Shown here: positions 14,901 to 60,003 of the stretch, one piece after another | How positions within the stretch are numbered: the first letter of the stretch is position 1 | How the letters are laid out: each line of letters opens with the position of its first letter | Source: Bolinopsis microptera | Taxonomy: Eukaryota > Ctenophora > Tentaculata > Lobata > Bolinopsidae | Reading direction: 5' to 3' | DNA length: 64,000 nt | Assembly: GCF_026151205.1 (NCBI RefSeq) | Contig: NC_087084.1 | Coordinates: 4,209,538-4,273,537 of the forward strand | Program-made: the position numbers and the translations under genes | Notes under the pieces: model-generated | What the model was told of the DNA's origin: nothing | What the model saw: only the letters and a program-made list of their open reading frames with translations | Databases searched by the model: none

Positions 14901-17900
14901 CACAAGAAGGACGAGTAATTTAGCAACATCACTCAGCATCTTTTTAACAGCAAGCTGTAGAGGCCCAATCACGCTCATCACGTCCAGGAAGTTCATCACA
15001 CGAAAAAACACAAACATTTGGGTTATACCTGCAAAGATATGTTATTTAGTTAAAAATAAAATAACAATGAGATAACATCAAGATAACATCGAGATACATT
15101 TAAAATTTTAAGGCTTATTGACACATCAAAATTTCTCAATTTCGTTGGCTACCAATATTTACACTATGTCTGCAATGACCCCTAGTAAATATCTTTGTTC
15201 TCAGTACTTACTATATAAGTAGATTGATGTCAAGGTATTGGTTTTAAAACCTTCCACCAATTTCTCGGGTTCAATCAGCTGCACCTCATCTTCGATCTTT
15301 GATATGTCTACTGCAGCCACAGTACAATTCCAAAATCTTATAGCGAAAGCTACAATCATCAAGACGCAAATCAGTACATCAACATTGTTCCAGAAGTTGG
15401 AGAAGTATTTTTTGGCACTCCTCATGCAGATCATTTGATACACTTCCATTTGGATTCGTGCTAGCACACATAGCCAAAGAATTATTTCCGGAATGTTTAT
15501 CCTGGAATTGCTTTGAAGAAAATCTTCTGCATAATCATTATTGATTTCGCCCCCTTCTTGATCCTCCAAAACAAATTTGTCAGGAACTGTTAAAGCAACG
15601 TAGAGAAGAAGACCCAGAAGGATGGCATAGTTAAGAAGGTCAGCAAGAAAAGAGTAGAATGGTGTGGTAATACTCAGGGAAAGATAATCTAAACGACTAT
15701 ATTTAAAATTCCATTCTCTCAAAACCAAGTAGTCTTTGATTAGCAATAACAAATATATTGGTCCCACAAAGAAGGACGTGAACGGTTTAAAAACAAAAAG
15801 AGCTTTTCCTCTGTAGCTCTTAAAATCTTTATTACCATAAAACTCTTCAAGAACTATTTCTTGGCAAAATGGATGCGACAGAAACTTTTTTTCTTTAGTC
15901 TCCAGAGCGTTTTCAATGTAGTTGGAACCACAAAGCAAACGCCTTGCTTCCCAAAGCGTACGACAAGCATCCAAGTAAGCAAAGGTGAAATCTCTGGCTG
16001 ACTTAACGAGGATTTTGCAGTCAGTGGTGTATTCCTTTTTAACTGAAGCAACCTTGAGAAGCGCACCAATAATTTGATGGGCAGTTTTTATTGGGTCCTT
16101 GGTAAGCATCAAAAATTCATGTTGGAAAAAGGCTGTAAGGGACAACATTGCGGTGCGAGATTCTTTGTCGGGATTTTCCAGAGTAGCACACAGAGTATCC
16201 ACTGCCTGCTTGATGTCTGCTCCATGGAGTAGTAGTTGCCGGAGGATATTCTTATTATCAGTATTAGTAGCAGTAGAGTTTACCTTTAAACTCACGGATC
16301 GGGCTACATAGACTAAAGGACAATCCTTGTTATCATCCACTTGGTTCGGATTGGCCCCATATTTCAGGAGCATCATTGTCATATTGTTTCTGGAGGACCC
16401 CATTTTACATGACAGAAGGAGAGGGCAATTACCGAAATGATCACGAGCGTTTACCAGATTTATTTCCGAGTGATATTTCTTTTTGCATCCAAATTTTGGT
16501 ACGATTTCTACTGGATGGCAGTTTTTTTCAAGAAAAGATTCCATCTCAATATCACTCCCCATTTGGATGATGAGAAATAACCTTTGCAGCCTTTCAAATC
16601 TTTGATCTGGGGTTAGGTTTTTAGCTCTCTCCTCTCGTGCTTTTCTTTCTTTTTTTAACCTGGCATTTGTAACAACTCTGTTGTTCTTATTAATCGGTCT
16701 CCCCAACTTTCCTCGCTTTGTTTCACTCTGAAGCGAACTGGAAGTGACGAAAGACCGATCTCTACTTTGCTTTGAATTCAATTTGATTCCAATGGGAGTT
16801 ATAGGTTTTACCTTCTCTTTGAAAGGCTGGCGTCTTTTCTCTTTAGTTCGGCGAATGAGGGGTGTACGAGATGATTCATATTCCTCACGAGAAAGTGATC
16901 TGCGGTTGACAGCGTTGTCTTCGTTACCAGTCTGATCACTGCTTACAGTTGTATCAGACTTCCAATCCTCACTTACACAAACCTCTAGGTCCTCACTCTC
17001 ACTGGAATGTTCTGCAGCTAAACGTTTACTCCTGAGACTAGTCAGTAAATCACCAATTCCCTCGCGGATATCTTGAAACTGGGGCTTGTTTTCTCGCCAG
17101 TTTTGCAAATCTTTCAGCACCAATTGTTGATTTTCAGATGCCTGCTTTAAATTAAAAAAGTCATGAACCTTTTTATTTTTGTGACCAGTTTTTGATAAGA
17201 ATCTTGGCTTCTTTCTTTGATGAAACTGATCTTTGCCATGATCGTCTTGACTAAGATCAAAATTTGAAATGGTGGTATCCTGGTTATTGTCAGGACCATC
17301 GTCAAGGAAGTATACTATGGGTAAGCCCAAAGGAATAGGAATGTTATCAGGTTGGATTGAACTACAACCGTATTTATCCTCCCCTCCATCAGAATTTATG
17401 CTGTTCCAACCCGAACGCTTAAAGCTTGGGCTAAAATCTAAACTCATCTTTCAGTCTTTTAAGCGACGAGAAACCATTTGAACATGATGAGTCTTAGCTG
17501 AAAGATGATTCTTTACAGCTATTTTTCTAGCTGGTAAAGAGTTTTAAGATTAGGGGAGATCACGGTCAAATGGGAAATTTGGTCAAATGGGATTTTGCGA
17601 TTTCAGGAAAACAGGGATACGGTACCCTGATAGAATTATGTAACTGGTATCCCAAAGATATGAGCTACATTCCATTCTTATTGCTTTGATATGCCAAGAT
17701 AATTCGATTTTGCTCATAAACACTCTACGTTGTTTCCTGGGAAAAGAAACTATAATTTCCGTTATACTTTCGCTGATTCTGGAGTGTTGTACTTTACTTC
17801 TGTGTCTGTCCATTTCCAACCCTATTATTTAGTTACTCTAGACACTTTTAAGAGTGTAATGATAGTTGTTTGATATCGATATGCATGTTAAAAATTAGTT

Positions 17901-20900
17901 TCTAGTGCTTTTCCAACGCAGCCTATTTCGGTCATATGGTACGATTTTATTTAGCTATTCGGGATATCCCATTTACTTACTTTGTTACTTTGTAGGGTTT
18001 CATAGAATCCTCTATCGGGCCATCGAAAAAGTCGACCCCCCGGACAGTGTAGAAACTGTTTTATCACCACTCCAATCAAGCAAGGAGTTTCCATTCCGAC
18101 GGCTGTATCCTGGAGCTGGAGGCTCGTCCGGAAATGACTTCACAAAGTTCGTTAAAGCCGCTTTGAATTACATAGGATCCTCGATGGTGTGCATATGTGT
18201 TGGGATTACATTCCATAATCGAGGTCCAGTGACTGCAAATGAGTTGTCATGTAGTGCTTGATTACGTTGACTGCTGGACTTAGCTATACTGGGCACAACT
18301 GCTTTTTGACCATGTCTGAGAGTCACCGAGAACTGGATACCAATATCATTAGGGCACTTGCAATGCAGAACTTTCCACATGTTGATGATTAAATACCGTT
18401 CTCTTCTTCTTTGCAATGACATCAGATCTAGGGCCTTTAATCTCTGCCAGTAGTTGAGGTGCTGGGTGCCATCTATTTTCAATGTAAACGTACGCTGAAT
18501 CCCTTCTAGCTGTTGGATGTCCTTGTTCTTAGAGCAATTCCACAGAGGACAGCAATACTCCAGATGGCTTCTAACGAGAGACTTGTACAGAGTCATCATG
18601 GTGGCTTTGTCTCTCGTTTTGAACGCACTTAGCACCCAAGAAGCAACTTTTCCTGCGCGTTCAGCTATCCTGTTGACGTGTGGGGTCCAGGACAAATCAG
18701 CGGAAACTGTCACTCCTAGATCTTTCACCGTTTGAGTGGGGTACAGCATGTTTCCGTTAGACACTTCATATGTTTGAGCTTGGATGGCGAATGGATGATC
18801 AAACAAGGAATTCTTTGGACAATGCTTGTGAACAAGAAGCTCGAACTTATCCTCATGAAGGGCCATGTTGTTGCACTTAGCCCAATTAACAACAGAGTTG
18901 AGATCATCCTGCAGGACATCTTTGTCGGCCAAACTGTAGATATGCTTAAGAATCCTAGTGTCATCAGCAAAGAATCTGATGACAGACCCTTTAACACATA
19001 GCTTCATATCATTTATGAACAGAATGAATAACAGTGGCCCAAGAACGGTGCCTTGTGGAACTCCACTGAGGATTGCGGCAGCAAACGATGATACACCATT
19101 TAACACAACACATTGCTTCCTTTCAGTCAGGAAGGATCGGATCCAGTTTACCACCTTCTCATGAAACCCCAATCTCTTCATTTTCAGAAGCAGTAACCGA
19201 TGATCGACCTTATCAAAGGCTTTGGCAAAATCCAGATATATAGCGTCAGTGTCTGCATTTCTAGTAAGACCTTGAACTATATCGTCTACGTGACTTAACA
19301 GCTGGGTAAGGCAGCTTCTTCCTGAGCGGAACCCGTGCTGGTTGTTGCAGAGTAACTGATTTTTCTCAATAAAGTCAACCATAACACCACGGAGGATACG
19401 TTCATACACTTTGATGATGTGCGAAGTGAGAGCAACTGGTCTGTAGTTGACTGCCTTGGCCCTGTCACCCTTTTTAAATAGTGGTGTAATGTAGGTGTCT
19501 TTGTAGAACGATGGCACTGTACCGTTTTCAAATGATTCCTCCCAAATAATACGTATAGGAGAACACAACTCCTTAGCACAGTTTTTCAAGAGAGTTGTAG
19601 GTATTCCGTCCGGTCCACAAGCAGAATCTGTAGAGATACTTTTTATAGCTGAAATGATATCTTCGTCACTAATTCTAAAGTCCTCTAGTTCTTGTGGGTG
19701 CTGGATAGAGGGAGGGGAGAAAACCGGATCCTTAACATCAGGAGAGGTCGGATCGCTAAACACAGAGCTGAACTGTTCCTGCAGCAGATCGGCCATTTTC
19801 TTGGGGTCTGTGGTTATCTCCTGGTTGCTATCAAAGAGCATGTTAATACTGGATTTGATCTTCGACAGAGACTTAGCATAACTGAAAAAGAACTTGGGAT
19901 TTGTTTTGATCTTTTCTACTGCCCTGGATTCCTTTTCATCAAGTCTCTTGGTATGGGCACATCGAATATCATACTGTAGGAGTGCAACCTTGTTCCTAAC
20001 ATTTCTGATGTGATCGTCAGGTGCACCATTGTTGACTAAGGCATTCAGCCTTCCCTGGAGTCGGTTCCTTTTACGCCGCAAAGCATTGGTATGTTTTGGG
20101 CGCCCAGAAGGTTTAGCCTTGCGGGGAACATGAGACGAGCATATCTGAAAGAGGGTCTCAGTAAACAAGGCTGGGAAGTCTTCAAAAGAGCATGAAGAAC
20201 GAAGTTGAGACCAGTTAGTGTCTTCTATCTCGTCTCTGAGCGAGCTGAAGTCTGCTTGGAGAAAATCAAGGCATCTGTACGAGTTTTCATCAAACTTCGG
20301 CACTGCTGATTTCTCCTGTTCAAGTGGATTATATGCTAGCATAACATCTACCACGTGATGGTCTGACATTGTTGTGGTTTTGCATTCAACATTTGTAACA
20401 ACTCGGTTGTTGTTAGTAATAAACAGGTCCAAAACATTGTTTCCTCTCGTTGGACACATTACGTACTGACTCAGCAGATGATCAGACATGAAAGTTAAGA
20501 AATGCTGTGCTGACTGCTGAATTTCTTGCGTGCCTCCAGATTGAACACAATTTGTCTGCCAGTCAATTGAGGGTAAGTTAAAGTCTCCAGTCATCATGAT
20601 ATCGTAGCTGTCGTCATTAATACTACTGATACATACGGAGAAAAAACTGAGGAGTGCTTTAAAGCTTGACAAGGATGCATTAGGCGGACGATAAGCCACA
20701 GCAACACATGTCTTTATAGTGCTGAAACTACAGAAAAGTCCTTCACACGTGCCGTCATCAAACGTGTTACACTCACTGACCGGTAAGTTGATATGAGAGT
20801 AGAGTAGAACACCCCCTCCCACCCTTGCATCACGGTCGCTGCGAGATACCGAATAGCCTGGTATTTGCAGTTGTGCGTCTGACATATAGGACTTGAGCCA

Positions 20901-23900
20901 CGTTTCCGTAAGTGCTATAAACGGTAACGAGTGGTTTCTGAATTTCTCATCCTGAATAAGAGCTGAGATTTCTGGCACTTTCCATCTACTCGTACTAGGA
21001 TTCATGGACTGGACATTTAAGACGAGGCATGAGGAATAAGGGGCACGTGTGTCCTCTGAGGCGGTAGGAACTGCGGGTACTGGTAGTGGTATAGTGGGAG
21101 CGCTGTTCCTGGCTGAAGAGGTGGAGGTGGTCTGGGGTAGTGGTAGGGCATTTGAGTTTGAGGGAGGCTGGACCGGTGGTCGACTATTTCTGATAGGAGT
21201 CCGATCCTGGTTTGCATCGTTTCCAACAGTCTCCGTAACTCTAAAAAATCCTGATTCGCCGCTGTTACACCTTTTGATGGCATGGATTTCTTATTCTCTG
21301 CTTTTCCCTTCTTGTGTCCAACAGCAGAGTTTGTCTGACGGCGGGTACCCTTCAAATGAATAAAAGTGCAGTCAGACTTCGTGCAAAGTTTATTCTTAAC
21401 TGAAAACTTGCACAACACAGGGTGAAGAAACTTGCAGTCTGGACCTTTACTGCAACCAAACTTGTGCTGATTTCCGTATTGACAGAATCTGTTACAATAC
21501 TTCGGGTGTTCAAACTCACAAATCTGACCATTATGTTTCTTCTTCCCCTTGAGACCATGAGGACACTTTCCACGCTTGTACTTCTCACAAATTCTCTCCT
21601 GCGCAGCAGCAGATGATTTCTCGTGAAGCTCTGAATCGTCAATTGCTACACTAGATTGAGAAGTGGAGTGTTCTGTGATTTCCTCGGATGAGGACATTTG
21701 TGACGCAATCAAATCCTGCTTGGGTTGCTGAGATTCGGAATCTGATTTGTTCACAGTACTATCATCTGATTTGTTCACAGTACTATCATGCCGGCTCTTC
21801 GATTTTCGTGGTTTAATAGGAATGCTTGATTCCATGCATGATTTACACAACCAAACATAACTAGAAAGAACAGTAGCACTAGTCAAAACATCGTGGAAAC
21901 TCGTAACAGCAGAACAGTTGTGAGATCCCCGAAAACACATATGACAGTGAAAAACGGGTTTCTGATCGGCTTCAAACTCAACAGTGTACTTTTCGTTACA
22001 TTCCAAGCATTCTGATGGCAGGAACGCACGGAGCTCGAACTGAATTCTATTGGCAAGACTGTCCTTTGTATACAGTTTGTTCCCGTCTGAGTCGGCTAAA
22101 TCAATGTTCAAAAACTCTGCACACGGTTCCAACATATCAAGATTAAAAGCAGATATTAACTTGACATTTGCTGAACGCTTTGCAGAGTGGTCAAAAACTG
22201 AAATGACACGTTTCACAATTTCATTACTTCCTGCACGGAGAAGCAGGTTCCCAATAGCCAGTTCATTAGAGTTATCGCCTGACATTGTACACTTCTTGTA
22301 TACAGTTACACACGTTGTACACAAGGTTATCACAGAGTAATACCGTTTTATCAATAGAGATAAGAGAGCTGCGTAATGTACAACCAAAGCAATTTAACAA
22401 ATTTAGCCAAAATTTTGCTATCCCATTTAACCAAACTGCGTTATTTGATCTGTATATGAGCTCTTCCTTGCAGGAATATGGCCCCAAAAACAGATAAAAC
22501 TAAAAAGAAGCGTAATATATAAACATGGGGTTGGGACCTCAGTACAAGAGAAAAACTAACAGACAGTCGTGGTCGGAAGCTGACATGAGCCGGGCACTAA
22601 GAGCGATTGAGGAGAAAGAGTGTGGCTATCTAAAAGCTGCAGCACTATTTAACGTTCCAAAAACTACCTTAGAAAGACGATTCAAAGGAAAAAACAAGGT
22701 TTTTTTAGTTCTTTGCCAAACTGATAAAGGCCACTCAAGCAAACGACAGGCGAGCATCATCAGCTTGCATCATCACCAACTTTGTACTTTTCAGCCAGTG
22801 TATTAGATGATATTTTGTACTATTTTGTCAAATGGGACGTTTTTCTTTTGCCATATGGGATATCCCAAATAACCAAAATTGAAGTATCCCATTGGACCAA
22901 AAAAAAATTCTAGCCATAACTATCACTGTCAAATGGGACAGTGGTTTTACCATCAAATTAACCACATTTTTCAGTAATGCACTGGTCTATATGAAAGACT
23001 AACTTATAGAGCCATCATTTAACACCACAAAAGCCAACCTGGTAACTAGTATGATTTTAAACAAATTGAAATATAAAAGTATCCCATATTACCGTGATCT
23101 CCCCTAAATACTTTTAACTTTAGTTGATCAAGATAAAAAATCATATATATCGTATTCACCTCAATAAGGTTGAAAGTTTCGCATATACGTGTATCTCTTC
23201 CAAAAGGGCCCTGGAGGTTTGTGGAAACTAATTCCGAATCACCCCATAGCTTAGTATAAAAATGCTTTCTTGAAGAGTTCTGAGCAAAAACGTTTTTCGT
23301 CCCGTGACAAACGCATATTTGGCTGTTTAGTGTTTAGGGTTATGGATAGGGCTACGGTTAGTGTTAGGGTTACGGTTGTACCTTAATCCTAACCGTAAAA
23401 ACTGGAATCATCGCACGTGAACCTACACGGATAGATTCGATTTTAATCGCCACCTTGGAAACTGGATTTGCGTAAGCGTGATTCATGTTTTAGACGATAA
23501 TTACAATCATGATGAAACAGTTGATGTAAAGTTTACTATAAGAAACTGTTTCATAAAAGACAAAATTTAGATCAACCCAAAATTATATAGTTTACGATAT
23601 TTACAAGTGCTATATTAATATAAGCTTTAGTTTTTACTCTATACCACTAGTAAAGTTATCGAAGAAAAGTAAAGTTATCGAAGAAAAGTACAAAGGAATA
23701 AGGATCTTGAAATGAGCACATGGGATATTTTATCACTGATCAAATTTAATTACACAGCTAGACGCTGTGTTCTAACTGCGGTCGCAAAAGACCCACTCGT
23801 CCGGGTCGCAAACGACCCATCAAGTTTGTCCACGTCATTAATAGATTAATTATCAGTACCAATATCACGTGGTTCCCCATCAATAAAGTCAGCGTAACAG

Positions 23901-32900: not shown

Positions 32901-35900
32901 CACAAACAATTCTTACGGACAATTTAAACACTAAACATGGTACTAACGTGTTATTCAGCATCGCAATTAGAGTGTTCAGAATGATTATAGCTCCGATAAC
33001 TGAGTACGCTAACACTAACACCAGGACAATCCAATATGTCACCATATGGTCCCTTGATAAGTCCTTTTGGTGTGGGCAGATTGTTAATTAGTTAATTAGT
33101 TAATTAGTTAATTATAGTGTGGAGAATGATGATAGCACCAACAGCTGAGTACGCTGGAGGGATAGATTTTAAAGAATTAACATGTCATTGATAACTTATT
33201 AATTAATTAATTAAATATTAATAAAATTTTGTATTTTAGTGTCGATGATATAATAAAAAGAAGATAATATGTTTAGTGAACACATTTCGGATCATTGCAC
33301 ACTTCGGATCATTGCACACTTCAAGTTTCAAAATACTTGATTTATAGAAGTTCATTTATTTGTTATACTTATTAAATTTATAGAAATTAAAGTAAGTTAA
33401 CCGTACGTCATAGCTGAAGATGTCAAAAAGAGTCCAGATCATGCTGACGAGAGCTTTTTCAAATGTGCTGAACTGCTCATAGTACTGTGTGCCCTTAACT
33501 TTTCTGTAACATCTGGCAATGCAAAGTATTGCACAAACAAATCCTGCGGTGTAGGAGTTATTTAAGTGGATATTATTATATTACCAGAACTAAGTCCATA
33601 TGATTTATCGTGTCAACTAAGAAATATTGCCATAAATTAGAATTTAAAAAACTAGAATATAGAAAACTAGTATATAAAAAACTAGAACATAGAATATAAT
33701 ATGTAATAAACAATAGTATTACCTAGCAATATAATCACAAGGAGGACGAGTAATTTAGCAACATCACTCAGCATCTTTTTAACAGCAAGTTGTAGAGGCC
33801 CAATCACGCTCATCACGTCCAGGAAGTTCATCAAACGGAAGAACACAAACACTTGGGTTATACCTGCAAATAGATATTATTTAGTTTGAAATAAGATAAC
33901 ATCAAGATAACATCAAGATACATTTAACATTTTAAGGCTTATTAACAATAACACTTCATAAGTTCTCAATTTCGTTGGCTACCAATATTTTCACTATGTC
34001 TGCAATTATGACCCCTAGTAAATATCTTTGTTCTCAGTACTTACTATATAAGTAGATTGAGGTCATGGTACTAGTTTTAAAACCTTCCACCAATTCCTCG
34101 GGTGTAATCAGCTGCACCTCATCTTCTATCTTTGATATGTCTACAGCCAGAGTACAATTCCAAAATCTTATAGCGAAAGCTACGATCATCAAGACGCAAA
34201 TCAGTACATCAACATTGTTCCAGAAGTTGGAGAAGTATTTTTTGGCGCCCCTCATGCAAAGTTGATACACTTCCAGTTGGATTCGTGCTAGTACACATAG
34301 CCAAAGAATTATTTCCGGCAATTCTATTTTGGCATTGCTTTGAAGAAAACGTTCTGCATAATCACGATCACTTTCGCCCCCTTTTTGATCCTTCAAATCC
34401 AAGTTGTCAGGAACTGTTAAAGCAACGTAGAGAAGAAGACCCAGAAGGATGGCATAGTTAAGAAAATCAGCAAGAAAAGAGTAGAATGGTGTGGAAATAC
34501 TCCGGGAAAGATAATCTAAACGACTATATTTAAATCGCCATGTTCCCGAAACCAAGTAGTCTTTGATTAGCAATAAAAAGTATATTGGTCCCACAAAGAA
34601 GGACGTGAACGATTTAGAAATGAAAAGAGCTTTTCTTTTGTAGCTCTTAAAATCTTTATTACCATAAAACTCTTCAAGAACTATTTCTTGGCAAAATGGA
34701 TGCGACAAAAACTTTTTTTCTTGAGTCTCCAGAGCGTTTTCAATGTAGTTGGAACCACAAAGCAAACGCCTTGCTTCCCAAAGCGTACGACAGGCATCCA
34801 AGTAAGCAAAGGTGAAATCTCTGGCTGACTTAGCGAGGATGTTGCAGTCAGTGGTGTATTCCTCTTTAATCGAAGCAACTTTGAGAAGCATACCATTAAC
34901 TTGATGGGCAGTTTTTATTGGGTCCTTAGTAAGCATCAAAAATTCAGGTTGGATAAGGGCTGTAAGGGACATCATTGCGGTGCGAGATTCTTTGTTGGGA
35001 GTTTCCAGAGTATCACACAAAGTATCCACTGCCTGCTTGATGTCTGCTCCATGAAGTAGTAATTCCCGAAGAATCCTAATATTTCCATCATCAGGTCTTA
35101 AACTCACGGATTGGCCTACATAGACTAAAGGACAATCCTTGTTTTCATCCACTTGGTTCGGATTGGCCCCGTATTTCAGGAGCATCATTGTCATATCGTT
35201 TCTGGAGGACCCCATTTTACAAGACAGAAGGAGAGGGCAATTTCCGAAATGATCACGAGCGTTTACCAGATTTATTTCCGAATGATATTTCGTTTTGCAT
35301 CCAAATTTTGGTACGATTTCTACTGGATTGCAGTAGTATTCAAGATAAGATTCCATCTCAATAACACTTCCCATTTGGATGATGAGAAATAACCTTTGCA
35401 GCCTTTCAAATCTTTGATCTGGGGTTAGGTTTCTAGCTCTTTCTTCTCGTGCTTTTATTTCTGTTTTTAACCTAGCAGCTGTAATAACTCTGTTGTTCTT
35501 TTTAATAGGTCTTCCCATCTTTCTTCGCTTTATTTCGTTCTGAAGCGAGCTGGCAGTGACGAAAGACCGATCTCTACTTTGCTTTGAATTCGATTTGATT
35601 CCAGTGGGAGTTATAGGTTTTACCTTCTCTTTGAAAGGCTGGCGTCTTTTCTCTTTAGTTCGGCGAATGGCAGTTGCGTGTGGAGGAAGAGGGGGAGGAG
35701 GAGGAGGGATGGGAATTGTTGGAGCTTCTGGGTGGTTATTAATTGAGGGAACTGGAGATGCTGTAAGAGTAGAACCACAGTCAGCTTGTGGTTTCCTTAG
35801 AGTTTGAGGTGTACGAGTAGAACTACGGTCAGCTTGTGGTTTCCTCAGAGTTTGAGGTGATGGGAGTGTTTCAGCTTGTGATGTTGGAGGTGCTGGAGGA

Positions 35901-38900
35901 GCTGGAGGTGCTAAGACAGGTACTGATGGTGGTTTTGATGATGGCACTGGAGGTGGTGCACCTTCAGAAAAACCTTCTAAAGATCTGGCAAGTGATTTAT
36001 ATTCCTCAAGGGTAAGTGATTTGCGGTTGACGGCGTTGTCTTCGGTACCAGTCTGATCACTGCTTACAGTTATATCTGACCTCCAATCCTCACTTACACT
36101 ATCCTTTAGGTCGTCACTCTCACTGGAATTTTCTGCAGCTAAACGTCTACTCCTGAGACTAGTCAGTAAATCACCAATTCCCTCGCGGCTATCTTGAAAC
36201 TGGGGATCGTTCTCTCGCCATGATAATCTCCTTCTATTTTGCAGATCTCTCAGCACCAATTGTTGACTTTCAGATGCCTGCTTAAGATTTGCCGAGTCTG
36301 CAGATTTGGAAATGTCATGAACCTTTTTATTTTTGTGACCAGTTTTTGATAGGAATCCTGTCTTCTTTCTTCGATCAAACTGATCTTTGCCATGATCGTC
36401 TTGACAAAGTTCAAAATTCGAAATGGTGGTATCGTGGTTATTGTCAGGACCATCGTCATGAAAGTATACTATTGGTAAGCCCAGGGGAATAGGAATGTTA
36501 TCGGGTTGGATTGAACTATAATCGTCTTTATCGTCCCCTCCATCAGAAATTATGCTGTTCAAACGCCGAAAGCTTGGTCTCATCTTTCAGTCTTTTAAGC
36601 GATGGGAAACCATTTGAACCCTTTACATGATGATTCTTATCTAAAAGATGATTCTTTACAGCTATTTTTCTAGCTGGTATAAAGAGTTTTAAGATTAAAT
36701 ACTTTAGTTGATCAACAAAAATCATACATATCGTATTCACCTATTAATAAGTTCATGTAAAATCCGGATTGGAGTATTATTTATGAGTCGCATTGTTGTA
36801 ATGTATTCCGTGTAAAATTATCTTTATCCTGGTTTTTGCGACAAGTAAAAATGCTCTTATTAGGGAAAGGAGTTTACTCGACGTTTCAATGTAACTACAT
36901 CGTATTCATGATCTAAAAACAAGTGTTAAAAATTCAAAACGTAAAAAACATATATCTGAGGCAAAATTTTTGAATTTTTAACACTTGTTTTTAGATCATG
37001 AATACGATGTAGTTACATTGAAACGTCGAGTAAACTCCTTTCCCTAATAAGAGCATTTTTACTTGTCGCAACAACCGGGATAAAGATAATTTTACACGGA
37101 ATACACCTATTAATAAGGTTGAAAGTTTCGCATATAAACCTATATATATACGTGTATTTCTTGCAAAAGGGCCCTGGAGGTTTGTGGAAACTATATATTC
37201 CGAATCACCCCATACCTTAGTATAAAAATGCTTCTTTGAAGAGTTCTGAGCAATAACTATTTTTGTCCCGTGACATGCCAGTTAAACGCATATTTGGCTG
37301 TTTGGTGTTTATGGTTACGGATAGGGTTACGGTTAATGTTAGAGTTACGGTTGTACCTTAATCCTAACCGTAAAAACTGGAATCCACACAAATGAACCTA
37401 CACGAATAGATTCGATTTTAATCGCCACCTTGGAAACTGGATTTGTTTAAGCTTGATTCATGTTTTAGACGATAATTACAATCACGATGAAACAGTTGAT
37501 GTAAAGTTTATTGTAAGAAACTGTTTTATAATAGACAAAATTGTATAATTAAACGATGAATTACTCTGATTCAGTTTTAACTTGCAGAGGAAAAAAATCA
37601 TAACAGCTATAACATATTATATGTAAAATAATGCAAAACTGTATTGTTGGTCTTACCCCATTTAACGAATCAGAATAAACAGTCTTAACTCTTATACTGT
37701 GCCCACCCCCCCCACTACAAATTGTAGGGGAGCCCAATAACCGTCTACACCTGCCGCAGCCATATAGGCCCGCAGTAATTTAGATCAAACCGAAATTATA
37801 TATAATATTTACACGTGCTATAAGCTTTAGGTTTTACTCTATACCACTAGTATAGTTATCGAAGAAAAGTAAAGTTATCGAAGAAAAGTGCAAAGGAATA
37901 AGGATCTTGAAATGAGCACATGGGATATTTTATCATTGATCAAATTTAATTACAGCTCAACACCTGAACACCTTAGTTGTAAACTAAACTGGAAAAATTG
38001 GAGAACAGCTGCGTACGCTTACTGAACTTATTGTATTACTATTAAGGACCTATGTTATTTTTGACTGACGAGTGCAGCACGCCGATTATTAAAGTATTAA
38101 CCGCCGAGTGTAATTGAGTAATGAGTAATGAGTATGCACTTCGCGAAGCTTTTTAAACTTTTTACAAGTGTATTCTAATAACCAAGGCCCAAAACGACTG
38201 TTTTAGATCAAAATCGGAAAATTACCGTAAAAATTGAATCATAAAACCAACTCACAGCTATCTTCAGAAGTATCTAACTTAAAAATAAAACAAGACAGGA
38301 GACATAAACAATTAATTTTTTCAGAACACAAAACTCCCATATTTTGAATGAGAACATTGCCTGACATCTTGACAAAAACATTGCGGACTTAGCCCAGCTA
38401 ATGCTTAACGCAATCACACTTCGTCAGTATTAAACTTTAAAACTACATTCAGTCCTCAATACAACACGGATAAAGACGTTTTATACATAAACCCAGTGTA
38501 CACAGCTGGATTATAATTTTATACAATTGCATGTACAACACAGCACAAGCATTGTGGATACTGGCCTGTCAGCGAAGTGTACTAATTGAATGTTGACGTG
38601 TTCATATGTGAGACGTGAGTGACTCAACGCTGTTAGGGATTAATATTTTATCCCGCTAGCAAAACCAACATTACTTTTAGTTACAGAGTGTCATTATTAA
38701 AGTTATCTTTAAGTTAGTAAATAATAACGTTGAATATTTGGTTTCCCCCATGCAAGATTCCTCAGCGTTCCTAAGCTCTTCTTACCCTCCCGAGCAAAAA
38801 CTGATTGTAGGTGTTTGTAGCTTAGCGAAGGCATTACACTAAAATTAATATTCCAAATTACTCTGCGCAATTACATCTTTACATTATATAACTCTCTTGG

Positions 38901-49239: not shown

Positions 49240-49327
49240 GAAATAATGGTTCTTTTGCGATAGTCAAAACGCGACAACTAGCGCTTTGACACACGCTGCA
49301 ACCCCTTTTGATCGCGCGGCCGGCGTG

Positions 49328-49930
49328 CACGCTTTGCGTGCACGAGAGGTATACAACGTGTAGCAACTAGCGCTGGATGGCGACAACTAGCGCTATCCAG
49401 CGCTAGTTGTCGCCATCCAGCGCTAGTTGTCGCTATCCAGCGCTGGATAACGCTGGCCAGCGCAAAATATATATGTTCGATAATTGTCGCTATCCAGCGC
49501 TATAGTTGTCGCCATCCAGCGCTAGTTGTCGCCATCCAGCGCTAGTTGTCGCTATCCAGCGCTAGTTGTCGCTGGCTATGCGACACTGTCGCACGCGATA
49601 GTTTGCGATGGCCAGCGCAACTGGCCATCGCAGAAAACAGTTCGATAACTAGCGCTGGATAGCGACAACTAGCGCTGGATAGCGACAACCAGCGCTGGCC
49701 AGCGCTAGCCAGCGCTGGCCAGCGCTAACCAGCGCTAACCAGCGCTAACCAGCGCTAACCAGCGCTAACCAGCGCTAACCAGCGCTAACCAGCGCTAACC
49801 AGCGCTAACCAGCGCTAACCAGCGCTGGCCAGCGCTATCCAGCGCTAACCAGCGTTGGCCAGCGCTGGCCAGCGAAATGTATCAAAATCATATACTTATT
49901 ACTCTTCAGCCAGCGCTGGCCAGCGCAAAA
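49328..49930. repeat. AGCGCT palindromic repeat arm, left
   Basis: Dozens of agcgctggcc, agcgctaacc and agcgctagttgtcgc units. A run of about ten identical cagcgctaac decamers lies at about 49,720-49,810. Each agcgct is self-complementary, so the arm can fold on itself as well as pair with the right arm. Confidence 0.93.
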
Positions 49931-49956
49931 TATTTGCAATATTTTTTGTCAGCTTA

Positions 49957-50060
49957 ACGGGTGAAACTGATACTCGTAAAATTGGAAATATTTTTTCAAA
50001 TCCAAGTCCAACTCGGTGCGCATATATTTGTAAAGGTACAGTTATAAACCTACATTTACA
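49957..50060. repeat. Dispersed hairpin-ended motif, copy 2
   Basis: Diverged member of the family at 47,607 (taacgggtgaaactgatact, agtccaactcggtgcgc, gttataaacctac). It lies inside the transposon-like unit, just inside the left arm, which suggests the motif travels with such elements. Confidence 0.6.
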
Positions 50061-50573
50061 ATCGTCAGCTAGCGTTGGCTTACTAGCTGGGCGGAGCTGA
50101 TCAACTTACTGGGCGGCGCTCAGCCTGTCATTCCGCCGAATCTCTATTCTAATACATAATAGTAATATTAATATTACTGGCTGTGGAGTGAACAGTAGCT
50201 AAAGAGGTATTGGCCGTTTGCCTCTGACCTTGTTTCTATGACCCAGGTAAACTGGACCACGCTCTGGTAACAGGATCGGCCCCCCATGCCTGGGGTAACG
50301 AGGTAGTCAGGGGGAAGGTTAGCCCCCGTAAAAGTGGAGCCTTGGCTCACACTCTAATCTCCCTAAGCTTTGGGACAAAAGCGTATAGTCATTTACTGGA
50401 ATTGGTGAAGAAAGAAGAAATAATACAACGACAGGACATCATCACAAAACCCACTCTTACTGATTAGTAGCAACAAGTGTTCTAGCGGAAGTTGTTACTC
50501 AAGTGGCCAAGATGGATAAGTCATTTAACGCTCAAGTGGCGCCCGGCGTTAAGTAGGTGTCTCACTTTGCCTG

Positions 50574-50819
50574 ATGTGCAGGGGACTGCGCATGAGACAC
50601 CAGCCATTGAAAAGTTTGATGATGTCTTATAATAACAGTAGGGTTAAAGTCCCTACCACTGATTTAGATGTCGGAGGGGACCGGATTGATGACTCTCTCA
50701 CCCTAAAACTCCCTAGGAGAGGGGTGACAGATGATATGCCGGCTCCTTCACCCGGCACAAAAAATAACATAAAACAACAAAAAAGGATGGTGATGCATTG
50801 GTTTCTTGTAGTGAGGTAG
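50574..50819 (+). CDS. Short upstream ORF of the RTE-like LINE
   Basis: 81 codons, no recognised domain, Lys/Arg-rich end. It overlaps the start of the long ORF (50,798) by 22 nt in another frame. It may be a small ORF1 or a shifted N-terminal extension of the endonuclease protein. Evidence is only its position and openness. Confidence 0.3.
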   Translation: MCRGLRMRHQPLKSLMMSYNNSRVKVPTTDLDVGGDRIDDSLTLKLPRRGVTDDMPAPSPGTKNNIKQQKRMVMHWFLVVR

Positions 50820-53719
50820 CTCTAGTAGGGACATTTAATGTCCGAACTGCTAGAGAAGGTTACAAGCGCATTGAACTCGTGACTCAGTTTCTGGAGAGTG
50901 GCATGGAGATCCTTGGGATCCAAGAACATAGGATTGTCCACCAGGAGCCGATCAAGATCGAAAAGTTCAAGGAGGGGGTTAGCTTGGTAACTGTTTCAGC
51001 ATGGAGGAATGGAGCAGGAGCAGCCACTGGTGGAGTGGGCTTTCTGCTGACTAGAAGAGCATACAGCGCAATCAGCCTCATTAAACCCTATGGCTCAAGG
51101 GTGCTGACTATCTCTTTCAACGGAAATCCCAGACTCACAACTATAACTGCCTATAGTCCTACCGAGGCAGCACTAGTTGAAGAAGCGGAGGATTTTCATA
51201 ACACCCTTAGACAGGCTATGAATGATGTGCCAGCGCACCACCTGCTGATCACAGAGGGAGATATGAACGCCCGGCTTGGAAAGGAGAGTGAAGAAGATTC
51301 CCGTTGGTACTTTCATACTCGTACCAATCGGAATGGAGAGCTACTGAGAGACACTGCCCTGGAGTGCGATATGGAAATTACCAATATCCGCTTCAGAAAA
51401 AAGGTCAACAAGAGGTGGACCTTCTTATCCGATGGGACACTTAACAAAGGTCAGATTGACTATATCCTCATACGGCGGAAGTGGAAAAACTCATTAAAGA
51501 ACACTGAAGTTTACAACACTTTTCAGTCGTTGGGATCTGATCACAGAGTTGTAGTGTGTAAGATCAAAGTTAGCTTTAGGAAAGGACACAGGCCTCCGAA
51601 AAAAGTTAACTATGATTATAGTGCCCTGAAGTCGGATGGTGAGCTTCAAAAAAAGTATGCAATTGAAGTTCGGAATAGATTCTCTTGCCTGGTAGAGGAG
51701 GATGATGGGGCCACTGAAAGCTACGGGAAGCTTATGGTTTCTATTGAGGCGGCAAACAAGAGCCTTCTGCCAAAGAAGACTCGACAAAAGCAGATCGACC
51801 CCTCAAGTGACCCAAGAGTGGACAGTGCAAGGAGGGGACTGTTCTTGGCCAAGGACCAATACCATCAGGAGCCTTGTGAGGAGAAGAGAGAGGAAGTTGC
51901 CACTAAAAAGGATTTGTTAAAGGCCTGCTACAAAGAGGTAGAGGAGGAGATCCTGAAAGGAAAGATCAGGAAAGTTGAGGATACTGCTGATCGTTGTAAG
52001 AACAAGGAAAGCTGGAAGCTTGTCAACGATATTTCAGGGAGGACAAATCCCAGCTGTGGACTCGTGGAAGGGGGCAGCTCAACAGAACGTCTTGAGAACT
52101 GGAGGAAGCACTTCTCTGGGTTACTTGGACAGCCACCCACAGTCCCTGACAATAGTATTCCGATCAGGAATATACACCCTCCACTGAATATAGAGGATGG
52201 CCCGTTCACCATTGAGGAACTACGTCTTGCCAAAAAGCAGATAGTAGAAGGCAAAGCTTATGGTGATGACGGTATCTCACCTGAAGTGATGAAGAGGGTG
52301 GACATCGATGACGTCATCCTGAAGTTCTGCAACGATGCATTATGTGATGGTCTCATGCCCGATCAATGGAAGCTCAGTAATATTGTTCCTGTGCCAAAGA
52401 AAGGGGACCTCACTAAGACCGACAACTACAGAGGAATATCTCTGACATCGATAGTCAGTAAAACTCTGAACAAAATGTTGCTGAACAGGATGAAGCCAAG
52501 TCTTGAGGAAGTTTTAAGGGACAACCAGAATGGCTTTAGACCTGGGCGCTCTACAACATCGCACATCCTTGCTCTACGAAGAATTATGGAGGGTGCTAGA
52601 GCCAAAAATCTTAAGGCCACCATGGTTTTCATTGATTTCAAAAAGGCGTTCGATAGTGTGCATAGATCAGGTTTGCTCATGAAGATATTGAAAGCATATG
52701 GCATACCAGAAGCCATAGTGCGGCTCATTGAGGGTATCTATACGAGCACAAAGGCTAAAGTAGTTACAGCCGATGGTATAACAGAAATTTTTGATATCCT
52801 GGCTGGAGTACTGCAAGGAGACACTCTTGCCCCGTACTTGTTCATTATCGTGATTGACTATATCATGACAGTGTCTATAGACGATGATGACTCGGACTCT
52901 GGGTTTACTCTCAGGCCTGCACGGAGTAGAAGGATTGGTGCCGAGAAGATCGCAGACGTCGAGTTTGCAGATGATGTTGCCCTTATCACTGATACCATTG
53001 AAGGGGCAAAACTACTCCTGGACAGGCTTGAGAAAGCAGCACTGAGTGTTGGGCTAGCCATGAACGGCTCTAAAACTAAGTTCATGACTCTGAACATGAC
53101 AGAGGAGGCGAGTAGTCTTAATAGCTGTTCTGGAAACCAGCTGGAAAAGGTGACAGACTTTGTTTACCTTGGAGCTTGGATAGCAACAACAGAGAGGGAC
53201 CTGCGGGTCAGAAAAGCTAAGGCTTGGGCAGCCTGCCACAAGCTAAAGAAGATGTGGAAGTCTGACCTTAGAAGAGGACTAAAGATCCGTCTATTTGTTG
53301 CTACTGTGGAGTCAATACTTCTTTATGGTTCTGAAACGTGGACGTTGACAGAGCAATTGAAGAAACGCATTGATGGCTGCTACACTAGAATGCTAAGGAT
53401 GGCACTTAATGTGGATTGGAAGCAGCGAAAAACCAACAAAGAAGTCTATGGCAACCTACCGAGAGCAACCATGAAGATCCAAGAGCGCAGGATGCGACTA
53501 GCAGGCCATATCCACCGGCACCCAGAACTAGTCGCAAACCGCTTGCTACTCTGGGAACCAACTCATGGGGTGCGGAGTAGGGGGAGACCAGCCATGACCT
53601 ATGTTGATAGCCTACGAGCTGACACGGGTCTCAACGACACTGGAGAAATGGGCGGACTTATGGCGGATAGAGTTTTATGGAGACAGCGCATCAATACTCG
53701 GACGCTGAAGCCGCCTTAA
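50798..53719 (+). CDS. RTE-like LINE endonuclease-reverse transcriptase
   Basis: 973 residues without interruption. APE-type endonuclease (about 1-240) with GTFNVRTA, LGIQEHRI, EGDMNARLG and GSDHRVV. Reverse transcriptase (about 470-760) with DNYRGISLTS, NQNGFRPGRST, FIDFKKAFDSVH, GVLQGDTLAPYLF and the catalytic FADD. The C-terminal region has LYGSETWTL, TRMLRMALN and RRMRLAGHIHRH, as in RTE-group and related proteins. All catalytic boxes are present, so the protein may be active. The start was taken at the first Met before the endonuclease; the shortness of the N-terminus fits RTE elements. The upstream ORF overlaps it. Confidence 0.9.
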   Translation: MVSCSEVALVGTFNVRTAREGYKRIELVTQFLESGMEILGIQEHRIVHQEPIKIEKFKEGVSLVTVSAWRNGAGAATGGVGFLLTRRAYSAISLIKPYGSRVLTISFNGNPRLTTITAYSPTEAALVEEAEDFHNTLRQAMNDVPAHHLLITEGDMNARLGKESEEDSRWYFHTRTNRNGELLRDTALECDMEITNIRFRKKVNKRWTFLSDGTLNKGQIDYILIRRKWKNSLKNTEVYNTFQSLGSDHRVVVCKIKVSFRKGHRPPKKVNYDYSALKSDGELQKKYAIEVRNRFSCLVEEDDGATESYGKLMVSIEAANKSLLPKKTRQKQIDPSSDPRVDSARRGLFLAKDQYHQEPCEEKREEVATKKDLLKACYKEVEEEILKGKIRKVEDTADRCKNKESWKLVNDISGRTNPSCGLVEGGSSTERLENWRKHFSGLLGQPPTVPDNSIPIRNIHPPLNIEDGPFTIEELRLAKKQIVEGKAYGDDGISPEVMKRVDIDDVILKFCNDALCDGLMPDQWKLSNIVPVPKKGDLTKTDNYRGISLTSIVSKTLNKMLLNRMKPSLEEVLRDNQNGFRPGRSTTSHILALRRIMEGARAKNLKATMVFIDFKKAFDSVHRSGLLMKILKAYGIPEAIVRLIEGIYTSTKAKVVTADGITEIFDILAGVLQGDTLAPYLFIIVIDYIMTVSIDDDDSDSGFTLRPARSRRIGAEKIADVEFADDVALITDTIEGAKLLLDRLEKAALSVGLAMNGSKTKFMTLNMTEEASSLNSCSGNQLEKVTDFVYLGAWIATTERDLRVRKAKAWAACHKLKKMWKSDLRRGLKIRLFVATVESILLYGSETWTLTEQLKKRIDGCYTRMLRMALNVDWKQRKTNKEVYGNLPRATMKIQERRMRLAGHIHRHPELVANRLLLWEPTHGVRSRGRPAMTYVDSLRADTGLNDTGEMGGLMADRVLWRQRINTRTLKPP

Positions 53720-53809
53720 GTCAAGTAAGTCAATATTAATAGTAATATTGCAAGTCTGTATATAATACTAATAGTAATATCGCAAGTATTTGATTTTGAT
53801 ACATTGGCA

Positions 53810-54420
53810 TTGCGCTGGCCAGCGCTGGCTAGCGCTGGCTAGCGCTGCATGGTTAGCGCTGGATAGCGCTGGCCAGCGCTAGCCAGCGCTAGCCAGCGCT
53901 GGTTAGCGCTGGTTAGCGCTGGTTAGCGCTGGATAGCGCTGGCCAGCGCTAGCTGACGAGTAATATCGCAAACATATCCGCAAACATATCGGCCGAATCT
54001 CTATTCTAATACTAATAGTAATATTGTAAGTATATAGTAATATCGCAAGTATTTGATTTTGATACATTGGCATTGCGCTGGTTAGCGCTGGTTAGCGCTG
54101 GATAGCGCTGGCCAGCGCTAGCTGACGAGTAATATCGCAAACATTTTGCGCTGGCTTTCGATGGCCAGCGCTAGTTGTCGCCATCCAGCGCTAGTTGTCG
54201 CTGGCCAGCGCTAGTTGTCGCTATCCAGCGCTAGTTATCGAACTGTTTTCTGCGATGGCCAGTTGCGCTGGCCATCGCAAACTATCGCGTGCGACAGTGT
54301 CGCATAGCCAGCGACAACTAGCGCTGGATTGCGCGACAACTAGCGCTGGATGGCGACAACTAGCGCTGGATAGCGCTAGTTATCGCTATCCAGCGCTAGT
54401 TGTCGCGTTTTGACTATCGC
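53810..54420. repeat. AGCGCT palindromic repeat arm, right
   Basis: Inverted counterpart of 49,328-49,930. It contains two direct copies of a block with gcaagtatttgattttgata followed by cattggcattgcgctgg (about 53,775 and 54,045), so the arm has grown by internal duplication. Confidence 0.93.
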
Positions 54421-54437
54421 AAAAGAACCGAAATAAT

Positions 54438-55322: not shown

Positions 55323-58300
55323 CTAGCCATGTACTTTCGCGCCACTGTAATTATAAGCGCAAGGGCTCTGATTAGAGCAATACTTTCGCTGCGAGTGTCT
55401 TCTTCCCAGCATGTTGATCAGAAGGTACCTCATTTGGATTTCATGCTTCACCGGATCCGGGTCTTCTAGGTCCGGCTTTATAAACGCTGCCTCTACAACT
55501 ATCCCATCCGTCTCGTCGGCTACTATCTGTAAATAAATAAAGTGATAACTGTCAGTGTCTTGAAGGACTGAACGACAAATGTTCCAATGACGATAAAAGA
55601 AACATTTAAAAAATAAGTATTTTTCATTTTACGAGTGCATGAAGACATAACTACCGTATCGGTCATAATTTTCACGGACATTACTTTCACGCTGAAGACT
55701 TTTAATTTAACGGGTGATACTCGTAAAATATTTGTTCCAATTATATTGGGACCGTCGACGAGTCCAACTCAGCGCGCGTCCTGGTAGGTTATAAACCTAC
55801 AAGTACAATGAAGACCTTAGCGTGAATAATTAAGTCCGTGAAAATAATTTCTGTGGTATTTATAAGGTCCGTGAATAATAAAGTCCGGTAATTATTTCCA
55901 TTAATTTTAGTGTGTGTGTCCCTAAATATGCGTAGATATATGTGTAGCCGATTACTATATTAGTTTATTAGTATACTAGGACAAATATAATCTAAAACAC
56001 ACAATTAAATTTAGGTAAAAATCTGAAAATCATAACTTCCACGTTTCAAAATTGCCGTCCAATCTTCGTTATTTATATCATGATCATCCTTTTGCCATTA
56101 TCGAGATAAAAAATAAAAAATACGCTGCATTTTTACATAATAAAGCTCATTACCAAAAACGAAGTCTTTTTAAAAATCATCGTTTTATCTTCCAAAAGAT
56201 GAAATCGTTACAAGCTTTTAAATTAGTCAATTTGTAATTGTATACTTACGTGCCCTGAATTAACTTCAGTATCTCTAACGTCACTCTCCAAATCTAGCCC
56301 TTTTCCATATTGTAAGCTGGCATGTTTTTTATCCTTATCTGTAAATATTTTAAAATCAGCTAACCTAGCTAACAAAAAATAGCTGAGCCAAAACCATATG
56401 CCCATACTCCAATTTTTATGAACTTAATATGATAGTTTTCAGCCCAAATAAGCTAACGTAAATAAATATTGTATTTATATTTTCTTCTCGAAAAATCGTA
56501 ATAAGCAATATTTATCTTAGATTAAAACCGAAATGTGGACCAAACAATAACATACATCGCACAGATTATAAAATATATAGTGGTTGATTATTATCATGTC
56601 TTAACTACTTTTATTTAGATTTGTTTCTAAACTTGTATTTATTTGTTACCGTTTGTACGCCACTTTGCATAACTGTTATATGCCCTACATGCCAAACACA
56701 AGGGGATCACTATTAAACTGAATGGGAATAGCCATGGAATACCTTCTTTGTACTCCTGAGAAGACATCCTATATCAAAATAATATAGGAAAGATTCTAGT
56801 TGTATTTTTGGAAGCTGATAAATCTATAAATGATTATAATTTGGTTTATCTTCATGATTTATTTTAGATAAGTTTAGACTTGAACTGCTCAACGTTTCCG
56901 AATATGTTATTCATCATGTTTTCATTTCAGGTTTTTAACTTACCGAGAATAATGCACTTCTGGAGAACTTCCACTCCATATCGACGTTTTCTTGTATCTG
57001 TTGGTACCTGTCAAATTTTAAATTCAGGACAATTATTTTGACACAATACCTTACTTAATTTTCTTTCATAATTCAAACATGTTACCAAGAATTAAAAATA
57101 AAGCTTTATTCTTTAATGATAATCCTTATTAATAACTCACGTGTTGTTGAGCATAGCAATGAGCATGTTTAGTATGATAACTGTTCCGATTATAGAGTGG
57201 ACGAGAACTAGAACAAGTATTATCCGGTAGGTTACTACGTGCGAATGTAATAGACCCTGATATAAATGTAATAAGAATTTACTCTATTTATTTAACTATT
57301 TATTAACAAAAAGATGTAGTTATGCAATAAGAATTTATTTTTGGCTGATAATAGTATTATATCTTTATACGATCGATAAGAATTTCATCTTTGAATGTAA
57401 AGTTAATAATAGTAAAATATGTAAAATTAAAAATAAAACCTACGTCATACTGAAAGATGTCAAAGAGAGACCAAGTAACGGTGATCAATGTTTCACTAAA
57501 AGTTTTGAACTGCTCGAACATATTGTCTCCGCTCTCCTCCGTGGAGTTTGATGTGGAATTAAAATCAATCCATACGTTTCTATAACAGCTAGCCACGCTG
57601 TAGATCGCACAGACAAAGCCTGTTGATAAATTAGTTTTAATTATTGATTATATTGTTTTCAAAGGCTCTTCACTCTTGATATAAAGTCAAAGTTACTCGT
57701 AAGGCAAAACCATGATTTAACACATAATTATTGCGATTCCTACTAATTAATGCATTAATTAATCAAAACATAGCATTTACTTACCCATCACGATTATGAC
57801 AAGGATAACTGATAGTTTGAAGACATCATAAAACATCCGCCTCACTGCAAGCTGTAAGGGTCCTATGAGACACGTAGCACCCAGAAAGTTCATGACACGG
57901 AAGAATACGAAAACTTGTGTTATGCCTGAAACGTTATTGATCTGAGTCAATAACCAAACATAACAAATTAAAAACATTGATATTTTCTAGGGTATTACCA
58001 AAGTTTGCCCAAGAATTGCCGAAAATGGATAAAACTATAAAAAGGCCAATAGTCACTGTTTTAGTTTACTTTGGAGCCATTTTTGGTTAATTTACGATCT
58101 GAAAATATATCCTGAGCAACAGAATCATTATAGTCCATAAACTACCTGCAAGATCATATGAAATTGACATATACTCACTGTAAATGTAAATAGCATTAGT
58201 GAAAGTATTTTTGAACTCTTCTGCCGAGTTTTCAATGTCCACATTGTTAGACATTGCTCGGATGCCGTAAATCCTGAGTCCACAACCTAAAGTCAGTAAA

Positions 58301-60003
58301 GCACATATGGACACATCAATATAGTTCCAAAAGTTGGAACGATACTTCTTGACTCCTATTGAGAAGCACTGGTAGAACTCTGTAAGGACTCTAGATAAAA
58401 TACTCAACCAAAGTAGCAGCTCAGGCAGAGCAATCTTTGTGCTCCTTTTTAATATATCAACTTCATTACTTGTGGCATTATCTTTATCTTTGGCAGCTTT
58501 GAACTTTTGTGGAACTGAGCTAGCCACATACACCAAAAGAACCAAAAGCATTGCAAGATTGAATGCATCGCAGAGGAATGAATAGAAAGGTGTTTTCAAC
58601 GTCCGGACACAGTAATACAATGAGCTGTACTTGTATATCCAAGGTCTAGGGGGAATTTGGTCTTCACCTTCATTAGCAGTATAATGTATGTAACCTTTTG
58701 GAACCAGGACTATAAGGCTTAATGAATGTATGCAACACCAGAACGCTGCATACACCCCTTTCAAAATAAGCAAAATCATTTTGCAGTACGTCTTGCAGTC
58801 TTGGCTACCATAAAATTCTTCGAGGATTATTTCTTGACAGAAAGGGTGCGACAGGAACAATTTTTCTTTTGTCTCTAACGCGTTCTCGATGTGGTTAGAT
58901 CTATAAAGCAGTCGTCTTGCCTCCCAATGTGTTTGGCAGTTGTCCAAGAAATCGTATGCAAATTTTCTCCCTGTCTCAATTAAGTTGATGCAATGGGTGG
59001 TATATTCTACGATTATTTCTTTGATCATCGTGAGTTTGTAATTTACATAATGAGCAGTTTCAATTGGATCTTTGGTAAGCATCAAAAATTCAGGTTGGAT
59101 AAGGGCTGTAAGGGACATCATTGCGGTGCGAGTTTCTTTCCTGGGATTTTCAAAAGTACCACACAGAGTATCCACTGCCTGCTTGATGTCTGCTCCATGA
59201 CGTAGTAGTTGCCGGAGAATATTCTCATTATCAGTATTAGTAGCAGTAGATTTTACCTTTAAACTCACGGATCGGGCTACATAGACTAAAGGACAATCCT
59301 TGTTATTATCCACTTGGTTCGGATTGGCCCCATATTTCAGGAGCATCATTGTCATATTGTTTCTGGAGGACCCCATTTTACATGACAGAAGGAGAGGGCA
59401 ATTACCGAAATGATCACGAGCGTTTACCAGATTTATTTCCGAGTGATATTTCCTTTTGCATCCAAATCTTGATACAATTTTTACTGGATTGCAGTATTTT
59501 TCAAGAAAAGATTCCATCTCAATATCACTCCCCATTTGGATGATGAGAAATAACTTTTGCAGGCTTTCAAATGTTTCTAAATCAGTTAGGGTATCAGTTC
59601 TGTCTTCTCGTGCCTCTATTTCTTTCTTTAGCCAAGCACAGCATCCATTGTTCTTTTTACTTGATCCTATTTGCATTTCATCTACATTCTGCATTTCAAA
59701 AACTTCATGAGTAACTGCAAGGCAAGTTACAGTTTCCTCGTCTAAAGAATTTTTCCGGGAATAAGACCTTTTTGTTTCGTAATTCCGCAGCACCTGTTGC
59801 ACCTTTTGGCGATATTCGTTATCGAAAGAGTTTTTTCTATCATTTTCGTGAAGTATAGGTAATCCCAGAGGGATAGGAATCCCATCTGGTCTAATTTGGC
59901 TGAAATCGCCGGTATCTTTATTCTCAGATTCATCTAAATCTTCATCAGTACTCGCAGCTCGTTGGAAGTTCATTTTTTCTTGTCGTCTTGATCCATCATT
60001 CAA
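55323..60003 (-). CDS. TRPC-like cation channel, gene C
   Basis: Exons on the - strand: 60003-58179, 57925-57785, 57619-57444, 57256-57141, 57007-56944, 56755-56650, 56338-56250 and 55526-55323. Signals and phases agree throughout, giving 906 residues. Intron positions match genes A and B, so all three share one ancestor. N-terminus with IPIPLGLPI (42-50), no proline-rich block, ankyrin repeats almost identical to gene A, then a more diverged S1-S4. The pore exon is 39 nt longer than in A/B, adding a turret with NSTSNSTEESGDN (possible N-glycosylation sites). The pore is TWSLFDIFQYD, S6 ILNMLIAMLNNT and the TRP helix MEWKFSRSALFS. The tail is EIQMRYLLINMLGRR plus an extra Cys-containing end (YCSNQSPCAYNYSG). 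The sharp contrast between near-identical ankyrin exon sequence and diverged membrane part suggests gene conversion. Confidence 0.88.
55707..55803. repeat. Dispersed hairpin-ended motif, copy 3
   Basis: Best-preserved copy: ttaacgggtgatactcgtaa, gtcgacgagtccaactcag, gtaggttataaacctac. It lies in the last intron of TRPC gene C. Confidence 0.7.

Follow-up and report, generated by a model that had tools for sequence, protein, structure and literature searches.

The foldback type of DNA transposon is defined by palindromic arms built of short tandem repeats (PMC4079207). FB of Drosophila, Tetris of D. virilis and TU of sea urchin have in common a variable middle domain between long inverted arms that consist of short tandem units, and copies that are non-autonomous, with target site duplications of 8–10 bp in the case of Tetris (PMC4079207). 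Galileo, a foldback-like element of the P superfamily, likewise has internally repetitive inverted arms, and additional binding sites for the transposase are located in its internal repeats (PMC4079207). Galileo has relatives with a P-type THAP transposase. P-type ends begin with CA, and the duplications are 7 bp long in Galileo and 8 bp long in TU. A different set of features is found in Merlin elements, whose ends begin with GG, whose duplications are 8 or 9 bp long and which have been reported in three ctenophores (PMC8101967).

Here, a stretch of 64,000 nucleotides from the ctenophore Bolinopsis microptera (C13:4209538–4273537, hereafter the window) was analyzed, and was found to contain a unit at 49248–54429 that is very probably a non-autonomous foldback-type DNA transposon moved by cut-and-paste. 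As in FB, Tetris and TU, long inverted arms made of short tandem repeats surround a middle domain, and target site duplications are present at dispersed copies. In contrast to those elements, the family has end and unit sequences of its own, a duplication that is constantly 8 bp long and sizes that reach down to 120-bp near-perfect hairpins; its ends are GG, in contrast to the CA of the P superfamily, and unlike Galileo it has no known relative with a P-type transposase. The sequence-only reading of the window had stated that the unit matched no family that could be named, which was too strong, as arms of the foldback type (PMC4079207) and ends like those of Merlin (PMC8101967) had both been described.

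The unit in the window and its two later insertions

In its present state, insertions included, the unit measures 5182 bp. Perfect inverted repeats of 38 bp form its left end (49248–49285, plus strand) and its right end (54392–54429, minus strand), and the 8-bp target site duplication GAAATAAT flanks them at 49240–49247 and 54430–54437. The 20-bp terminus is found at just two places in the window, both of them ends of the unit (0.01 expected by chance), and 56 of the 59 AGCGCT hexamers in the window fall within it. Thus the inverted termini, the 8-bp duplication and the AGCGCT arms claimed in the sequence-only reading were all confirmed in the window. The perfect match over 38 bp also stands, but this length is not the true limit of the repeat: the match at the left end stops there because the left arm is interrupted, at 49286–49366, by an 81-bp MITE from a different family (TTGACACACG...CGTGTAGCAA, plus strand), which lies between two copies of its own 8-bp duplication CTAGCGCT (49278–49285 and 49367–49374). 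Without the MITE, the ends of the unit align over 97 bp at 98% identity and then over 301 bp at 87%. About 40 other scored matches to this MITE are present in the genome, and 8-bp duplications were found in most of the seven flanks that were read.

The left arm (49375–49933, plus strand) is built of the 20-bp unit GCGACAACTAGCGCTGGATR in both orientations, followed further inward by an array of the 10-bp unit AACCAGCGCT, and the inverted arms of this copy match over up to 189 bp at 92%. The first 15 bases of GCGACAACTAGCGCTGGATR lie within the terminal repeat itself; the 15-mer GCGACAACTAGCGCT, inside the terminal repeat, recurs 15–28 times in each counted copy longer than 1.1 kb. The left part of the middle domain (49934–50156, plus strand) is colinear with another copy of the family, L047. 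Its right part, in which an internal duplication is present, and the right arm of AGCGCT units extend over 53750–54391 (minus strand).

Between the two parts of the middle domain lies a LINE (non-LTR retrotransposon; 50170–53736, plus strand, with boundaries that we infer from its duplication), whose open frame of 973 amino acids (50798–53719, plus strand) contains a reverse transcriptase domain (PF00078, E 6e-30). A 13-bp duplication, TAATAGTAATATT, adjoins the LINE on either side (50157–50169 and 53737–53749), and the insertion site of the LINE is uninterrupted in copy L047; moreover, other copies of the family carry other retroelements, namely a Penelope-like GIY-YIG frame (L039) and a reverse transcriptase (L120). 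The LINE therefore landed in the element, and the earlier view that the unit had captured an intact LINE was wrong; a role of the LINE as cargo is ruled out by the TAATAGTAATATT duplication and the intact site in L047. Once the MITE and the LINE are removed, each together with one copy of its duplication, the unit measures 1513 bp, which is the norm for the family, and underneath its two insertions the window copy is an ordinary family member. The likely course of events is that this copy landed and that the 81-bp MITE and the LINE afterwards entered its left arm and its middle, respectively.

Several other features were observed in the window. A 43-bp tandem array at 2049–2666 (14 copies, 97%) has a unit containing TTGACACACGCTGCAACCTCTTTTGAT, which closely matches the initial 27 bp of the MITE at 49286–49366, so that the array is apparently a transposon end turned minisatellite. 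Another tandem array, of 6 kb, occupies 3321–9368 (189 copies of a 32-bp unit, 97% matches). On the minus strand, three long open frames that are related to one another (15201–17447, 34034–36583 and 58087–60003) show by eye ankyrin-like and membrane-channel-like parts, and perhaps represent a local family of TRP-like channels. A second LINE was recognized by eye at 18168–22387 on the minus strand, with two adjacent open frames, one of 945 amino acids that is reverse transcriptase-like and one of 456 amino acids with CCCH-like motifs.

Copies of the family across the genome

The search for copies covered the 264.65-Mb genome, with the reversed terminus serving as control. Allowing up to 3 mismatches, the 20-bp end was found at 263 forward and 243 reverse sites, compared to 15 and 13 for the control, and the exact 26-bp end GGTTCTTTTGCGATAGTCAAAACGCG at 295 sites, with none in the controls. 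Pairing was carried out on 258 listed end positions, which include 100 of the 136 C-flanked ends and from which some copies on C10–C13 are absent. Among these positions, at least 90 convergent pairs of ends were recognized; the units that they delimit range from 95 bp to 11.4 kb, with a distinct peak at 1.4–1.8 kb (52 among the 90 listed pairs measure 1.0–2.0 kb). Where both flanks were read, 27 of 30 copies showed a perfect 8-bp duplication whose sequence was specific to the locus, and in the remaining three the duplication matched at 6 or 7 of the 8 positions. Among the copies with perfect 8-bp duplications are the units of 10.5 and 11.4 kb on C10 (GCAGGCTC and CAACTTTG). A 4.6-kb pair on the same contig (3263654–3268313) was rejected as a single unit on account of its unequal flanks.

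It could be argued that the unit is a palindrome that arose by chance, or a satellite-like array next to a coincidental 8-bp repeat, as its arms are tandem arrays and AGCGCT is self-complementary, so that inverted repeats form easily. Such an origin is refuted by the presence of defined ends at hundreds of dispersed sites, together with locus-specific 8-bp duplications, and we give it practically no credence. Shared ends and locus-specific duplications are instead what characterizes cut-and-paste transposition. The search with the terminus had been set beforehand as a test of the transposon-like unit, and with about 500 ends in the genome it was passed: other copies with the same ends and duplications were found, and GAAATAAT did not prove to be a chance repeat.

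Over 38 bp, 47 of 50 ends did not differ from the consensus, which is taken to mean that amplification was probably recent. A related subfamily with ends GGTTCTTTTGCGATAGTGTAAACGCGATAG is present at 53 + 40 sites in the genome, with none in the controls, and six of nine checked pairs had perfect 8-bp duplications. With respect to the target, the base preceding the exact 26-bp end was C in 136 cases, G in 78, T in 55 and A in 26, the bases adjoining the ends thus being G or C in 72.5%, compared to a GC content of 36% in the window. In addition, the commonest first base of the 27 listed duplications was G or C, and the commonest last base was C. These figures suggest that the 8-bp target preferably begins and ends with G or C.

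The arms vary widely among copies. Each of the smallest well-preserved ones, which are 120 bp long, folds as one 58-bp hairpin (z of about −25); in most of the larger ones, the left and right arms can be aligned, starting with the first base, over 60–690 bp at 88–100% identity. Long low-complexity repeats, open in several phases, were observed inside or beside element copies at L042 and L010.

Under the mechanism that we propose, a transposase encoded elsewhere would bind the shared ends GGTTCTTTTGCGATAGTCAAAACGCGACAACTAGCGCT and excise the element, which would then insert at an 8-bp staggered target, these 8 bp becoming duplicated. The repeated arm unit GCGACAACTAGCGCTGGATR probably provides extra transposase binding sites, by comparison with Galileo (PMC4079207). 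Slippage and recombination may lengthen and shorten the arms, which would account for the continuous range of sizes, from near-perfect hairpins of 120 bp up to units of about 1.7 kb.

Candidate sources of the transposase

No transposase was found in the copies read, the large ones having been sampled in part, and the family is therefore read as non-autonomous; the autonomous copy that the sequence-only reading had suggested looking for was not among them. Open frames in six large copies (L039–L044) corresponded to the Penelope-like GIY-YIG frame, to repeats and to reading frames of the arms. Transposase was likewise lacking in L120, with its reverse transcriptase, in L132, where LINE-like fragments were seen by eye, and in the pieces sampled from the two C10 units of 10.5 and 11.4 kb, while L137–L141 and L144–L147 showed no clear coding. 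Ends that differ within the first 35 bp belonged to short relatives or stood alone, with no coding partner. A mariner-type frame near the end at L009, on the element side, was not retained as a candidate, since its class makes TA duplications. Overall, six transposase matches were located within 12 kb of ends, roughly the number to be expected from random placement (estimated at 3 to 4).

Among known enzymes, the most likely source is a Merlin-type (IS1595-like DDE) transposase, the family then being a foldback-type derivative of Merlin; we infer this at slightly less than even confidence. The family ends carry the terminal 5'-GG-3', the 8-bp duplications of both the main family and the GGTTCTTTTGCGATAGTGTAAACGCGATAG subfamily fit the 8 or 9 bp of Merlin, and the inverted repeats fall in the length range described for that group (PMC8101967). 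Moreover, the genome contains 58 DDE_Tnp_IS1595 matches, several of them in open frames of 295–337 amino acids. Against this assignment, not one of these 58 is enclosed by paired ends among those listed, not every copy being readable; 15 inspected loci with a Merlin-type domain lacked the GGTTCTTTTGCGA end, and the first four of the loci had no clean inverted end bearing a 7- to 10-bp duplication. The units of the family that were read also differ from Merlin in having no transposase, and, to our knowledge, Merlin elements have not been described with arms made of palindromic tandem units. The family can thus be said to have Merlin-type ends, and is not classed here as Merlin.

Some of the loci with Merlin-type domains have repeats of their own. 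At L084, L111 and L112, open frames with such a domain stand beside the tandem palindrome GGTCCATGGACC, without clear inverted ends; L090 is a second copy of the L084 unit, and the GGTCCATGGACC palindromes recall the arms of the present family. Minisatellites resembling AAGACAACATT adjoin the Merlin-type domain loci L086, L088, L115 and L116.

Mobilization by a hAT transposase would also agree with a target site duplication of 8 bp, and the genome does contain hAT sequences, with 150 scored matches to the dimerisation domain from 368 candidates and, by eye, hAT-like fragments in L129, the 10.5-kb copy on C10. Nevertheless, the fragments in L129 have no Pfam match, and their order does not fit a single protein. 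hAT ends normally start with CA or TA and have G at position 5 (YARNG), whereas those of the family are GGTTC. Furthermore, no scored match (150 of the 368 candidates) lies between paired ends among those listed; one unpaired match, at C12:2802262, is placed 5.5 kb inside a lone end (C12:2802262–2807795). On this evidence a hAT enzyme appears unlikely. We consider it equally unlikely that the family belongs to the Mutator-like (MULE) group, in which many foldback elements are believed to fall: MULEs typically have long inverted arms, and 88 MULE matches are present in the genome, but Mutator duplications are usually 9 bp long, those found here are constantly 8 bp, and 0 of the 87 matches on large contigs lie between paired ends among those listed. 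The one MULE match near a lone end, at C5:5761606, was excluded because it is outside the element, which is about 220 bp long. Finally, the transposase may fall outside the known superfamilies that make 8-bp duplications, the ends and palindromic arms then marking an undescribed superfamily of ctenophore transposons, an idea that we regard as less probable still.

An apparently new family of a long-known class

While the structural class has long been known, the family itself is apparently new. A full-text literature search for the terminus string matched only three unrelated papers, and it is plausible, as judged on the full-text literature covered, that the family is undescribed. With several hundred ends, the foldback family is well supported and apparently has no name yet, and it occurs in a ctenophore, a group for which the catalogue of transposons is poor. 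In ctenophores, DNA transposons and a GC-rich motif have been linked to chromatin loops (PMC12221973). With identical ends and sizes that range from near-perfect hairpins of about 100 bp to about 1.7 kb, the family offers a good system for the study of how foldback arms grow. It is also suited to asking how palindromes persist, and which transposase moves bodies that are made of its possible binding sites.
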